Of a stretch of DNA of 64,000 bases, positions 15,865 through 21,838 are shown piece after piece. Within the stretch, counting starts at the first letter, position 1; the number at the start of each line of letters is the position of its first letter. The notes below the pieces were generated by a model. The model saw nothing but the letters and a program-made list of their open reading frames with translations. It ran no database searches and had not been told where the DNA came from. The stretch lies in IMG/VR virus record IMGVR_UViG_3300035181_001203, positions 1 through 64,000 of that record. One strand, written 5' to 3'. This DNA is from a virus. Both the position numbers and the translations under genes were made by a program.

Positions 15865-15940
15865 TCCTCCTGTAGCTTAATGGATTGAGCAGCGCCCTTC
15901 TAAGGCGCGGGTCTAGGTTCGATTCCTAGCAGGAGGACCA
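15865..15940 (+). tRNA. tRNA-Arg (UCU)
   Basis: TCCTCCT pairs perfectly with AGGAGGA, followed by encoded CCA. Anticodon stem GCGCC/GGCGC with loop CTTCTAA gives UCU, reading AGA, a common Arg codon in this AT-rich genome. T arm CTAGGTTCGATTCCTAG is canonical. Confidence 0.95.
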
Positions 15941-16125: not shown

Positions 16126-16155
16126 TTGCAAAATACTATATTTATTTGTTATAAT
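16126..16155 (+). promoter_or_regulatory. promoter of the large structured ncRNA
   Basis: TTGCAA (16126-16131), an 18-base spacer and TATAAT (16150-16155) within TTTGTTATAATATA, the extended -10 element shared with other plus-strand units. Start predicted near 16162. Confidence 0.7.
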
Positions 16156-16161
16156 ATACAT

Positions 16162-17043
16162 GGGAGAGTATAAACTTTGGAATATTATGGTCTAGGTTTC
16201 GTCAACCTAGTTAATACCTCGATGACAGAGCTATAGAGTCCCACTTTCTGCGGAATTGTGGATTGGCTTTATAGATGAATGGGGAGCCATAATAACCACG
16301 GAATATACTTTCCATAAAGTTTGAAGAGTTCTTTTCAAAAACTCTGTGTTTGGCGGTAGATGAATGACCGTTCCCCTCATAATAGCTTGATTGGGGTTAT
16401 GAGAATGCTGAAGATCAAGCGTTTGACCGTATCGAATAACGGTCTTGTGATTCCCCACAAATAAACAAGAGGGAGCCACCGCTAGGGCTTGCCGTGTTGA
16501 CAAGCGCGCTACTAGGTGGACAAGCAAGTAAAACACATAAGGTGTTGGTCTGCTTACCACAGACTACGGGTTAAAGAATTCCCGTTAAACTTGCAACAGC
16601 CATATATAGATAGGTCTATCGGCGGATAGGTTTATCGAAAATATGGCTCAACTAGTTCAGTCTCGCAAACTGAATTAGTTGCCAGGGCTTGCTAATTAGG
16701 GACGCCTAATAGCAAGAACCTGGGAAACGTTTATCAGTGGCGATTCACTGATGGGTTAAGAAGTTAGCCTGTAAGACCTTTCTATTCTAACGAATAGTAG
16801 GCAAAAAAACTTCAGATACCAACGCCAAGCCTACCTCATCAGGCCGCGTTGAAAATATGGATGAGGGAGTTGCCGGACCTAATAGAAACCGGATAGGGAT
16901 AAGTGCATTTAGAGTTGCAACTCTAAGCCCGAACATATTAAGCCCGAGCAAATGCAAATACTCGGGCGCTTTTCTGAAAGGATCACTTCGGAGCTAGTAC
17001 AATCATCGGATTGTATTAATTCCATACCCGGAAGTGATCCTTT
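16162..17043 (+). ncRNA. giant ornate structured RNA with several pseudoknots (GOLLD/ROOL-like candidate)
   Basis: About 880 bases without a credible protein gene, GC-richer than the flanking genes and almost wholly covered by perfect helices. Hairpins: 16192-16210; CAACTAGTTCAGT with its partner (16649-16661/16669-16681, 13 bp); nested CCAGG, CTTGCTA and TTAGG stems (16682-16723); ATCAGTG/CACTGAT (16733-16752); a GAAGTT, GCCT, CTATTC stack (16760-16813). GCCATAT/ATATGGC (16599-16647) encloses two small hairpins. Crossing pairings: CTCATAA/TTATGAG with GCTTGAT/ATCAAGC (16376-16420); the CAACGC hairpin loop CCTCATC with GATGAGG (16834-16866); CCGG/CCGG with CCTA/TAGG (16873-16897); GCATTT with AAATGC inside the GCCCGAG/CTCGGGC loop (16905-16967). 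A 13-bp helix (16977-16989/17031-17043) closes the 3' end. Own promoter, tRNA neighbours and phage context match the known GOLLD and ROOL classes, but membership is unproven. Confidence 0.8.
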
Positions 17044-17094
17044 GAGAGAAGAATTTTTAAAAATCAAGTTTTCAACGTAAAGAATAATAATAAT

Positions 17095-17182
17095 GCGGCT
17101 GTGGCGGAATCGGTAGACGCTACAGACTTAAAATCTGTCGTAGGTAAACTACATGCCGGTTCGAGTCCGGCCAGCCGCACCA
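17095..17182 (+). tRNA. tRNA-Leu (UAA)
   Basis: GCGGCTG pairs with CAGCCGC, with encoded ACCA. Anticodon stem ACAGA/TCTGT and loop CTTAAAA give UAA. Long variable arm (CGTAGG...CTACATG) and T arm GCCGGTTCGAGTCCGGC are canonical. Confidence 0.95.
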
Positions 17183-17709
17183 AAAAATACACCAAGGATT
17201 GAGAGCTTGCTTAAATGCAAATCTACGGATGCTCGAAACTGATCGTCAATGGTGGTAGCCCGATAAGATTAACTCGGGCAAACTTCACGTTCTCAATTCC
17301 AAGTCTGACGAACGGAAGTGTAATGACTTGGGTAAGGTCCACGCACTTTAAGACCTTTGGGGGTAGGGACAAGTGGATTAAAACCCCTCGTGCAAGTTTG
17401 GGAGACTGTAAAGATGCTTAAGGCATCTGTAAGCTGATTCAAAGGCCCTTGAGTAAAGGCTGTAATTTAATGGAAGCGCGGCATCCATTTTAGTTTCGTA
17501 AGGGGGGAGCGAAAGCTGAGAACCTTGTGCGAGATATGCCGATTAACAAGAAAGGTAGCCTAAGCTTATAAGTTAAGACCACTTCCAGGGTGCAAGGCTC
17601 TGGCTTGCATTAATGCAGACATTAAGTAGGCGTTTCATGAAACGCACAACTTAATACCGATAAAAGTTCTGCAATAGCCAATCAATTCGGTGATATTGGC
17701 AAACTTTAT
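17183..17709 (+). ncRNA. second large structured RNA between tRNA-Leu and tRNA-Lys
   Basis: About 500 bases with dense helices and no supported gene. GGATTGAGA (17196-17204) pairs with TCTCAATTCC (17291-17300) around GCCCGA/TCGGGC (17258-17279). CCAAGTC/GACTTGG is at 17299-17331. GGTC/GACC, GCAC/GTGC, CAC/GTG and GGGG/CCCC segments at 17336-17393 cross one another, implying a pseudoknot. Further hairpins: GATGC/GCATC (17413-17427), AATGGA/TCCATT (17469-17489), TGCAAG/CTTGCA (17591-17609), ATTAAGT/ACTTAAT enclosing GCGTTT-CATG-AAACGC (17621-17655), GCCAAT/ATTGGC (17677-17700). It starts and ends within about 15 bases of tRNAs, so tRNA processing could release it. I looked for RNase P, tmRNA and group I signatures and did not find them. 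Confidence 0.65.
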
Positions 17710-17786
17710 GGAACCTTAGCTCAGTTGGTTAGAGCATCTGACTTTTAATCAGAGGGTGCCGGGTTCGATTCCCGGAGGTTCCACCA
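17710..17786 (+). tRNA. tRNA-Lys (UUU)
   Basis: GGAACCT pairs with AGGTTCC, with encoded ACCA. Anticodon stem TCTGA/TCAGA and loop CTTTTAA give UUU. D arm AGCTCAGTTGGTTAGAGC and T arm CCGGGTTCGATTCCCGG are canonical. Confidence 0.96.
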
Positions 17787-18142
17787 ATAACCAAGTGTCC
17801 TGCATTCCAGGACTCGATATGCATAATCGCAGCTTGGTTTTTCGGAGAAGAGACTTACCGTGAGGAAGTCAACAAACTGGTGTTAAGGGATTACACCTTC
17901 TCCGAATAGAATCGCTATTAAATTCTGGTGAAGATTTAATAGCAAGCTTGTTGTCTGCTAGTGGCAACTGAAAAAACTCTTCTTACAGGAAGAGTTTAAA
18001 CTAGCTATCAAATCCTGGTTATTAGGAATGACAAAAAGGTGTAGTCTGACAGCTACATTCCCACAAATCATTCGCCTTGTCAGGGGAAACCGAAATCAAT
18101 ATGATTTCCGGCAGGATTTGATATACTAACAGAATATCACTT
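17787..18142 (+). ncRNA. third structured RNA segment between tRNA-Lys and tRNA-Ile2/Met
   Basis: Three consecutive folded blocks. AACCAAG (17789-17795) pairs with CTTGGTT (17833-17839) around GTCCTG/CAGGAC and is followed by TTT, terminator-like. TTCGGAGAAG (17841-17850) pairs with CTTCTCCGAA (17897-17906), enclosing two hairpins as a three-way junction. GCTATTAAAT/ATTTAATAGC is a 10-bp hairpin (17914-17943). ATCAAATCCTG (18007-18017) pairs over about 90 bases with CAGGATTTGAT (18112-18122), enclosing TGTAG/CTACA, TGACAA/TTGTCA and AAATC/GATTT stems. No ORF with a binding site. It may be several small RNAs or one long one released by tRNA processing. Confidence 0.6.
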
Positions 18143-18218
18143 GCGCCTATAGCTCAGCGGTCAGAGCTGGCGGCTCATAACCGCTTGGTCCTAGGTTCGA
18201 ATCCTAGTAGGCGCACCA
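18143..18218 (+). tRNA. tRNA with CAU anticodon, probably tRNA-Ile2
   Basis: GCGCCTA pairs with TAGGCGC, with encoded ACCA. Loop CTCATAA gives CAU. A paired G1-C72 excludes an initiator. The segment CATAACCGCTTGGTC resembles bacterial tRNA-Ile2 (CATAATCGCTTGGTC) more than elongator Met, so it probably reads AUA after lysidine modification by TilS. Elongator Met remains possible. Confidence 0.9.
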
Positions 18219-18299
18219 TCTATTTTTTTACTTTTCGCTATTCACAGGAGAACATATAAAAAAATGCACAACAAACTTCATTAAAACAAGTTTTATTAT

Positions 18300-19728: not shown

Positions 19729-20262
19729 CTATGATTTTATAAATATCCAGGGGGCACTTAGATAATCGTCAGGTTCTACTAAACAGGCTGGTTTATTAAA
19801 TATAAATCCCATTTTTTCATAAACTAATTGAGTAGATTCTGAACAAATATAAGCATCATTTGATTTAAACCAGATCTTCCATTCTTTATTAAATAATCTA
19901 CCCATTCCATGCTGCAATAATAAATTAAGTATTGTTAAATATCCATACTTTTTACCAACAAAATATGAAGTAGCTGTCTTTAATTTATCTTGTTCTAATG
20001 GAAGTTGAGAATTATTTAATCTAGCAATACCAGCTAAACGAAAATCATCTGCTCTATTATATAACTCTGCTTCTGTCATAGAAAGTATACGAATGCCTTT
20101 AGTACCTGCATCTAAGATGATATGTTTATCACCTTCCTGATTAATATATAAAGCTACATGGGTAATCTTATTCCCAGTTATTAATCTAATAAGTTTTGGA
20201 ATAATATTAGAAAATTTCCATGCTGGGGCTTCATATAATAAAACGTCCCCTGGGTTAAACAT
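19729..20262 (-). CDS. permuted papain-fold (YiiX/NlpC-P60-like) hydrolase, 177 aa
   Basis: GDVLLYEA at residues 5-12, THVALYI with His35, ILDAGTKGIRI and the late Cys140 in AYICSESTQLVYEKMG give the His-before-Cys order of circularly permuted NlpC/P60 enzymes (YiiX, LRAT-like). These cut amide or ester bonds in peptidoglycan or lipids. GNKITHVALYI is the typical strand around the catalytic His. No signal peptide. AAGGAG lies seven bases before ATG. Neighbours are tail genes and a hemerythrin remnant. It may act in host wall entry or lysis; the substrate cannot be told from sequence. Confidence 0.75.
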   Translation of the reverse strand: MFNPGDVLLYEAPAWKFSNIIPKLIRLITGNKITHVALYINQEGDKHIILDAGTKGIRILSMTEAELYNRADDFRLAGIARLNNSQLPLEQDKLKTATSYFVGKKYGYLTILNLLLQHGMGRLFNKEWKIWFKSNDAYICSESTQLVYEKMGFIFNKPACLVEPDDYLSAPWIFIKS

Positions 20263-20276
20263 GCAATTGCTCCTTA

Positions 20277-20290
20277 TATTGTGTTATAAT
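20277..20290 (+). promoter_or_regulatory. extended -10 promoter for the lipoprotein gene
   Basis: TATAAT (20285-20290) in TTGTGTTATAATATATATG, sharing GTTATAATATA with the promoters at 14509 and 16144. No convincing -35. The element is nearly palindromic, so it may also serve the divergent hydrolase gene. Confidence 0.55.
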
Positions 20291-20311
20291 ATATATGAAA
20301 GGAGAGCTTAT

Positions 20312-21838
20312 ATGAAGCTCCATAAAATTTTTCTAACTCTTTCCATTTTAGCAGCCCTTATGGGATGCTATGGAGGAAATAACGAAAGTAGCAATGGAAA
20401 CAATAATGTTGCGATACAGACACCTAAAACAACTTATGGGTTTTTTAGGAACTTACAGCCAAAAACTACTGTAAAAGCCCAAGTGGTAAATGGACAAACT
20501 GTGGGTAATCCTTCAATCACAATGGCAACAGCAAGAGAGGGGCATAAAGCTATCTCTATCGGAAATGGAAAATTCATGCTTATTGGCGGTGAACGAATTG
20601 TTTCTGCGAATGGACAAGATCTGCCTTCTTCTGATCCATCGGTTATTGATATATTTGATTCAAATACAGAACAATTTACGCATTTAGATACTATCACAAA
20701 TGTAAGTAGACAATGGAGTAGTGGAGGTGGAACTAATTTTGCTATGGTTCAAATGCCAAATAATAAAATTCTAATTATCGGTGGAGCAAGTAATGGTATA
20801 TCTGAAACTATTGAAGTTTTTGATCCATTAGATAATTCAATTCAACTTATTACTGGAGTGTTTCCAGAAAGGTCAATTAATAATGTTGATCATGCATTTT
20901 ATATTGGAAATAATAAGGTTTTATTAGTTGGAACCTATTTTATTGATAATAATGGACTTCATAATAAAGGGAATGCTGTAATTGATCTTACTACAATGAC
21001 AGGATCATTTATCAATACTCCGTATAATGCGATTAATGGAAATGCTGTACAGCTTTCCGACAGGAGTGTTATTTACGCAGGTGGGAACGATCCTACGATT
21101 ATTATCAATTTTTATAGTGATATTTATCGCATTGATCCAAATACTTTAGAAACTACTAAAATTGGCAACATGCTTTTTCCGAGAAGCCATTTTGGGATGA
21201 CTGTCTTACCTAATGGAAATATTGGAATTTATGGGGGTCTTGCACATATAAATGCTACCTTTGGACAAGATGAGGTTTTACGCTATAAAAGTGTAGAAAT
21301 CATTAATACAACTACGTGGATTCCAAGTCTTAGTGTCGATCTTTTAGGTTATCGTTCAATGACTCTTCCTACTGTGTTACAAACGGGTAATGTTCTCGTT
21401 GCAGGTGGTGTAAATGAAATTGGTAGACCAGCAGATAGTGAATTCGTTCATAATAGCGAGTCTAATCTTTCTGCATTTACCGGTAATCTTACTACGCCCA
21501 GGATGTTTTATTCCGTTATTCCGCTTAATAATGGAAGAATACTAATCTCTGGTGGATTATCTGATATCGGAGCAACTAATACGGCAGAAATTTATGACCC
21601 TGCTGCTAAACTACTGGTAACTTACGATACATCTACAACAATTTCAGTTAGTACAGACACAACTCCTTCAATAGTACATTTTACTTCTACCGGAACTAAA
21701 GTTACTTGGAGCATTAATGGTAATGGAACCATTGACGCGAATGGAGTGTATACTGCTCCAACCAGTCCATCAGTTGACATTATTACTGGAAGTGATGGAA
21801 CCAATTCAACTCAAGTTACTATTACTTCCATTCAGTAA
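20312..21838 (+). CDS. phage-encoded lipoprotein with Kelch-like propeller and C-terminal Ig-like domain, 508 aa
   Basis: An in-frame upstream ATG at 20261 exists, but AAGGAG and a classical signal peptide support the start at 20312: MKLHKIFLTLSILAALMGC, with lipobox LMGC, so Cys19 would be lipidated. Residues about 60-420 hold repeated Kelch-type blades (KFMLIGGERI; KILIIGGASN; NIGIYGGLAH; NVLVAGGVNE; RILISGGLSD). The C-terminus (VTWSINGNGTIDANGVYTAP) matches bacterial Ig-like domains. It is the only plus-strand gene inside the minus-strand tail block, has its own promoter, and its 3' end overlaps a convergent gene by 33 bases: the layout of a moron. A host surface role such as receptor blocking is possible but unproven. 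Confidence 0.8.
   Translation: MKLHKIFLTLSILAALMGCYGGNNESSNGNNNVAIQTPKTTYGFFRNLQPKTTVKAQVVNGQTVGNPSITMATAREGHKAISIGNGKFMLIGGERIVSANGQDLPSSDPSVIDIFDSNTEQFTHLDTITNVSRQWSSGGGTNFAMVQMPNNKILIIGGASNGISETIEVFDPLDNSIQLITGVFPERSINNVDHAFYIGNNKVLLVGTYFIDNNGLHNKGNAVIDLTTMTGSFINTPYNAINGNAVQLSDRSVIYAGGNDPTIIINFYSDIYRIDPNTLETTKIGNMLFPRSHFGMTVLPNGNIGIYGGLAHINATFGQDEVLRYKSVEIINTTTWIPSLSVDLLGYRSMTLPTVLQTGNVLVAGGVNEIGRPADSEFVHNSESNLSAFTGNLTTPRMFYSVIPLNNGRILISGGLSDIGATNTAEIYDPAAKLLVTYDTSTTISVSTDTTPSIVHFTSTGTKVTWSINGNGTIDANGVYTAPTSPSVDIITGSDGTNSTQVTITSIQ

Follow-up and report, generated by a model that had tools for sequence, protein, structure and literature searches.

An untranslated RNA of about 0.9 kb, built of several domains, is predicted between two tRNA genes of an uncultivated phage. 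It is read here as a functional, stand-alone molecule, the first to be recognised of a new class of phage RNA, which would act as a scaffold and join to copies of itself; we give this reading a probability of roughly 0.55. The window, the whole 64,000-nt stretch of DNA that was analysed, corresponds to bases 1-64000 of the 112,653-base virus record G000. Within it, the segment 16162-17043 belongs to a cluster with six tRNAs on the plus strand and is flanked by tRNA-Arg(TCT) at 15866-15940 and tRNA-Leu(TAA) at 17095-17182, as called by ARAGORN, so that its position beside phage tRNAs is just as an initial annotation of this DNA had described. GC content rises from about 30% to 42-43% at the locus, whose features, all on the plus strand, are as follows.

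16127-16163, plus strand: promoter, with a TGCAAAA box (16127-16133) and an extended -10 element TGTTATAAT (16147-16155), then ATACATGG
16162-17094, plus strand: giant RNA, inferred extent (fold z -8.72; homologous RNAs in G001 and G002)
16163-16313, plus strand: 5' domain; the terminal stem that closes it, 16163-16172 x 16304-16313, begins at the inferred transcription start (MFE folds)
16345-16450, plus strand: T domain, with hairpin 16352-16372 and hairpin ACCG-UAUCGAAUAA-CGGU at 16426-16443
16376-16382 x 16397-16403 crossing 16385-16391 x 16414-16420, plus strand: putative pseudoknot of the T domain
16441-16525, plus strand: core, with P1 (16445-16449 x 16456-16460), P3 (16476-16480 x 16515-16519) and P4 (16481-16493 x 16499-16509)
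16451-16455 x 16471-16475, plus strand: core pseudoknot
16441-16525, plus strand: invariant core motifs ATTCCC, GGGAG, GCNAGGG and CGCGCU (four copies, three phages)
16566-16585, plus strand: hairpin ACGGG-loop-CCCGU with conserved GAAUUCCCGUUAA (G001 alignment)
16649-16681, plus strand: hairpin whose stem covaries under a conserved UCUCGCA loop
16872-16898, plus strand: conserved element CGG-UAAUAGAAA-CCG-AUAGGG (G001 alignment)
16904-16967, plus strand: HK domain, with the kissing-loop hairpin 16909-16926 (UUGCAA) and hairpin 16942-16967 with conserved GAGCAAANGCAAAUACUC
about 16905-16909 x 16951-16955, plus strand: HK pseudoknot
16977-17043, plus strand: 3' hairpin; its perfect stem has 13 bp (helix scan; fold energy -39 kcal/mol)
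17095-17182, plus strand: tRNA-Leu(TAA), directly downstream of the RNA (ARAGORN)

The initial annotation had noted some 880 bases without a gene, and the coding analysis agrees. The sole open reading frame longer than 60 amino acids in 16162-17043 is antisense, starts with GTG and spans 109 codons; a Pfam search with it gave no match, and the counterpart in the related phage G001 has stops throughout all three antisense frames, so no plausible gene lies in the segment.

The claim that the RNA has its own promoter was likewise borne out. A 17-mer, TGTTATAATATACATGG, occupies 16147-16163, and eight sites in G000 match TGTTATAATATANATGG with 0-1 mismatches (14515, 16147, 20282, 73627, 84448, 85381, 85669 and 86168), most of them with a GCAA(A) box upstream. 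Copies in G001 precede the homologous RNA (L006 6270) and a noncoding leader (L006 9958). With up to 3 mismatches allowed, block shuffles yielded 3-15 matches, and weight was therefore given only to sites with 0-1 mismatches. Where transcription is expected to start, 7-8 nt past the -10 hexamer, the window and G001 each show the onset of a long stem; that of G001 comprises 15 bp (L006 6255-6241 x 6132-6118). The RNA is thus modelled to start about 7 nt past the -10 element and to end either with the 3' hairpin, at 17043, or where tRNA-Leu begins. No T run directly follows the 3' hairpin, which is possibly the RNA 3' end or a processing site. The G001 RNA likewise has a tRNA-Leu directly downstream, as seen from its sequence and a group I intron call. 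Near the locus, the segment 13786-14454 encodes, among baseplate-like genes, a small protein weakly similar to sigma-70 (Sigma70_r3) that may recognise the shared TGCAAAA/TGTTATAAT promoters.

The plus strand of the RNA folds far more stably than shuffled sequence, with -317.5 kcal/mol over 891 nt against -238.4 +/- 9.1 in shuffles (z = -8.72), while the antisense strand reaches z -6.46. Among 250-nt windows, 16601-16850 (z -7.8) and 16801-17050 (z -6.9), both on the plus strand, give the strongest fold signals of the whole 64 kb. The G001 and G002 relatives score -8.0 and -9.4, respectively. At least twelve perfect helices and at least four crossing pairings had been claimed at the outset. 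Seventeen perfect Watson-Crick helices of at least 7 bp, with partners within 160 nt, were counted, compared with 5.8 +/- 2.5 (maximum 13) in 60 dinucleotide shuffles; the helix count stood, yet three of these helices (GACCGTT/AACGGTC, TTTCTATT/AATAGAAA and GAGTTGC/GCAACTC) are absent from G001 and are probably chance, as far as that comparison goes. The long-range helices 16366 x 16438, 16779 x 16881 and 16867 x 16917 were dropped for not being kept in G001. The seventeen include five crossing pairs. Two crossings are supported, namely TTCCC/GGGAG in the core, present in four of four copies, and GCATT/AATGC around hairpin 16942-16967; that of CTCATAA/TTATGAG with GCTTGAT/ATCAAGC is suggestive.

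Comparison with related phages demonstrates, at the level of sequence, that selection for base pairing has preserved the core and some hairpins. In the core, of about 85 nt and present as four copies in three phages, 93.8% of alignment cells hold standard pairs, and sliding the partners by 1-3 columns lowers this to 39-47%; the alignment was fitted to the structure of the model and so leans towards it. Ten of the 25 core pairs are altered on both sides, and the observed score was reached by none of 500 shuffles. P4 is nearly all replaced between copies (CUUG/CAAG, UCAAUU/AAUUGA, CUGAUA/UAUUAG and CCACUU/AAGUGG), and this variable helix is bounded by the invariant AGGG and CGCGCU. The core pseudoknot TTCCC/GGGAG is itself invariant, and covariation therefore speaks neither for nor against it. 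The HK domain shows six double changes with all cells paired (14 of 500 shuffles), and the UCUCGCA hairpin three double and two single compatible changes, with 100% of cells paired compared with 21-38% when slid (60 of 500 shuffles). Slid controls are clear for both elements; the shuffle counts are modest, since each comparison involves two sequences and the structures were drawn from those same sequences. The HK pseudoknot consists of four invariant pairs and a fifth that is a compensated change from A-U to U-A once a single gap is shifted manually.

These data bear on two other explanations. That the locus is chance structure or a functionless repetitive palindromic element is close to negligible: other G000 windows do occasionally fall below z -3.5, but the structure signal here is the window's highest, and covariation across three phages refutes the explanation for the core. 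A regulatory or decoy RNA, binding a host protein or RNA through the loops AUUCCC/GGGAG, UCUCGCA, UAUCGAAUAA and GCAAANGCAAAUAC without any self-association, would fit the several loops that are identical across phages while their stems differ, and the shuffling of domains as of independent binding modules; such an RNA has no known partner, however, and the pseudoknot bundle exceeds what a simple decoy needs, which leaves it quite unlikely. The initial annotation had proposed a giant noncoding structured RNA, and had named an absence of covariation in homologues, or signs of translation, as what would speak against it; homologues in two phages covary in several helices, and no sign of translation was found. 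Read from its sequence, the locus thus carries the marks of a large ornate phage RNA, being noncoding and pseudoknotted with covariation-supported structure.

The first homologue was reached through the sigma-like protein neighbouring the RNA (58% identity). It lies in G001, an uncultivated phage of 157,395 bases whose DNA polymerase is 63% identical to that of G000. The G001 counterpart, about 1 kb long, is flanked by tRNA-Arg and tRNA-Leu, with the shared promoter in front. The local alignment spans 16447 to about 16850 of the window, plus the HK and T domains. Domain order differs between the two: T, core, hairpins and HK in the window; HK, core A, hairpins and core B in G001. The single G001 RNA carries two core copies (L006 5968-5884 and 5465-5385, minus strand), and the window one. 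The HK counterpart occupies L006 5965-6079 (minus strand), whereas the T counterpart is separate, at L006 3427-3535 (minus strand) directly before tRNA-Ile, with two double changes beneath an identical loop. By this alignment, the phages carry their domains in shuffled order.

From the core sequences of the window and G001, a covariance model (R1) was built; it matched 103903-103993 of G002 (32.7 bits, E 1.1e-4), an uncultivated phage of 168,567 bases with a DNA polymerase 42% identical to that of G000. This copy starts a highly structured noncoding stretch of about 700 nt between protein genes. Aligned with the G001 RNA, it scores 247.5, where 100 shuffles reach no more than 214, the alignment including a common hairpin, GACTTTGGGTTT-stem-TATCCAGAAA-stem. 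The full-length alignment with the window scores 211, not above the best shuffles, so that outside the core it is G001 that connects G002 with the window. The HK domain, the T domain and the self-complementary loop are all absent from the G002 RNA. As currently defined, the family comprises three phages, all uncultivated; against isolated phages, every database match of the G000 polymerase falls below 60% identity, with those listed at 31-35%.

Placement relative to tRNAs bears on whether the RNA is instead a structured leader or spacer of the tRNA operon, its folds guiding processing of the tRNA precursor, termination or stability. In line with this are the position between tRNAs, the structure of other spacers in the cluster (17601-18250, z -3.5 to -6.8), the lone T domain just before the G001 tRNA-Ile and the tRNA-Leu that follows the RNA in both phages. 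Against it, the G002 relative is flanked by protein genes and the surrounding 9 kb that were read contain no tRNA, the RNA has its own promoter, and 900 nt of conserved pseudoknots are more than a processing signal needs; we regard this explanation as unlikely.

In viral contigs the exact core pattern was found in G001 only; two matches in bacterial genomes had no stems and were taken as chance. An exact-pattern scan with TAGAGTTGCAACTCTAA returned two contigs whose surroundings read as repetitive protein-coding sequence, and none of the 109 stretches with the TTGCAA...GCAAANGCAAATAC pattern had both stems. Weak core matches in G007 and G008 (16.8 bits) were rejected for lacking GGGAG. The polymerase relatives G003 and G005 proved to be fragments without tRNA, core or sigma gene, and blastn searches of annotated phages and plasmids, with this RNA or its relatives as query, returned nothing relevant.

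Known RNA families were searched widely. At the gathering thresholds of Rfam release 15, the window contains tRNAs only; at lax thresholds, the RNA locus and its G001 and G002 counterparts gave nothing credible besides tRNAs and the G001 intron. That intron, a group I intron interrupting the G001 tRNA-Leu (L006 5220-5019, minus strand), scores 47.2 bits, just below the Rfam cut-off, and its detection indicates that the scan can see weak known structured RNAs. Between 14900 and 18500, models of group I and II introns, tmRNA and RNase P RNA gave no match besides a 15-bit tmRNA_permuted fragment on a tRNA, which is at chance level (E 4.6). That the RNA is catalytic, a ribozyme or intron remnant, is therefore hard to uphold: the compact pseudoknotted core with its invariant loops and the group I intron in the neighbouring G001 tRNA-Leu would suit it, yet at E up to 2-5 none of the three RNAs matched a ribozyme or intron family of Rfam, although the weak group I intron was found, and no gene is interrupted at the window locus, making this reading very improbable.

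GOLLD is encoded by phages or prophages, often by tRNA islands, and exceeds 800 nt, with pseudoknots and kissing loops (PMC12286853). The present RNA resembles it in size, phage origin, pseudoknots and tRNA neighbourhood, the last in G000 and G001 but not in G002, and differs in its core, where the AUUCCC/GGGAG pseudoknot and GCNAGGG...CGCGCU are unmatched by any Rfam model. The GOLLD model (RF02032, cut-off 150 bits) had no match in the whole G000 or G001 records at E up to 10; in G002 it found only a 27-nt, 6-bit fragment away from the RNA. ROOL, a large phage RNA near tRNAs, has several pseudoknots and symmetric kissing loops (PMC12286853). Its likeness extends to tRNA adjacency, large size and pseudoknots, and the self-complementary UUGCAA loop, conserved in G001, may correspond to its kissing loops. 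Its model (RF03087), run at E up to 10, matched nowhere in the whole records of G000, G001 and G002; the 14 control genomes likewise yielded no match, so that this negative is provisional. Size, phage origin, nearby tRNAs and pseudoknots would fit a divergent GOLLD or ROOL, but with both models matchless in G000 and G001 and the all-Rfam scans negative, such membership is scarcely plausible. Of the two options first raised, a new member or a new class, the latter is favoured by the absence of GOLLD and ROOL matches in G000 at E = 10.

Two of the remaining comparisons, with ICP1 and phage K, concern RNAs described as GOLLD/ROOL-like in size or position (PMC7567579, PMC9241854). The most abundant noncoding RNA of ICP1, about 800 nt in the gp139-gp140 gap, lies away from tRNAs (PMC7567579); it is large, untranslated and, like the G002 copy, remote from tRNAs, but models R1-R3 had no significant match in ICP1 70000-119000. 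The long noncoding RNAs of Staphylococcus phage K are abundantly transcribed beside phage tRNAs (PMC9241854) and share this placement and large size; R1-R3 nonetheless had no credible match in 1-49000 of that phage, the best being R2 (16.9 bits, E 0.015), far from the tRNAs. OLE RNA, also large and ornate, dimerises partly via a kissing loop (PMC12286853), and it is absent from the all-Rfam scan matches.

The hairpin at 16909-16926, reported initially as TTGCAA on TTAGAG/CTCTAA, has exactly those coordinates and that sequence. In the window it reads TTAGAG-TTGCAA-CTCTAA and in G001 TGATCG-TTGCAA-CGATCA, the loop being identical and three stem pairs changed. It is the only hairpin with a self-complementary hexamer loop in either RNA, and G002 has none. 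Chains of GOLLD, ROOL and OLE are joined by symmetric kissing loops (PMC12286853), and by analogy self-association through the UUGCAA loop would be the most likely mechanism for the window and G001 RNAs. The conservation of this loop on a changed stem strengthens this suggestion; the missing loop in G002 means that dimerisation through UUGCAA would not be universal, and the loop could be conserved for some other reason.

Under the favoured reading, a stand-alone scaffold RNA, transcription would occur during infection from a promoter of the phage's own type, and either the 3' hairpin or RNase P, cutting at tRNA-Leu, would define the 3' end. Through the self-complementary UUGCAA loop, copies of the scaffold would dimerise or build a larger complex, as GOLLD and ROOL do, and this assembly may hold some component of the host or the phage, for instance tRNA or ribosomes. 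The RNA may thus work in a GOLLD/ROOL-like way while, by the model searches, belonging to neither. A broader proposal is tentative and below even odds: a new giant-RNA class with exchangeable domains and a core occurring once or twice per chain, forming an RNA-only complex in infection on a domain plan unlike GOLLD or ROOL. Very few giant ornate RNA classes have been described, and two of those from phages, GOLLD (a 14-mer) and ROOL, form homo-oligomeric RNA cages. A further unrelated phage class, if true, would mean that phages have reached giant structured RNAs more than once, and would supply independent sequences for comparing shared traits such as tRNA neighbourhood, kissing loops and an own promoter. 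With shuffled domains and a core repeated in one chain, the modular build of giant RNAs becomes testable.

Several minor observations concern the surroundings of these RNAs. Two more long noncoding spacers between tRNAs, at 17183-17709 and 17787-18142 of the window, have no Rfam match; stable folding (z -3.5 to -6.8) is seen on either strand in windows across 17601-18250, and these spacers may be additional structured RNAs. A possible 525-aa phage lipoprotein is encoded at 20261-21838, with a signal-like start and, by eye, Kelch-like repeats, and lies behind the shared promoter at 20282. In G002, the tRNA cluster includes, at L040 2976-4076 and 5186-5611, an open reading frame that by eye resembles a TnpB-type transposon protein and a phage-encoded tmRNA. 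In G001, the noncoding leader of about 0.45 kb at L006 9945-9457 (minus strand), directly before tRNA-Thr, has a perfect copy of the shared promoter in front and looks structured by eye.
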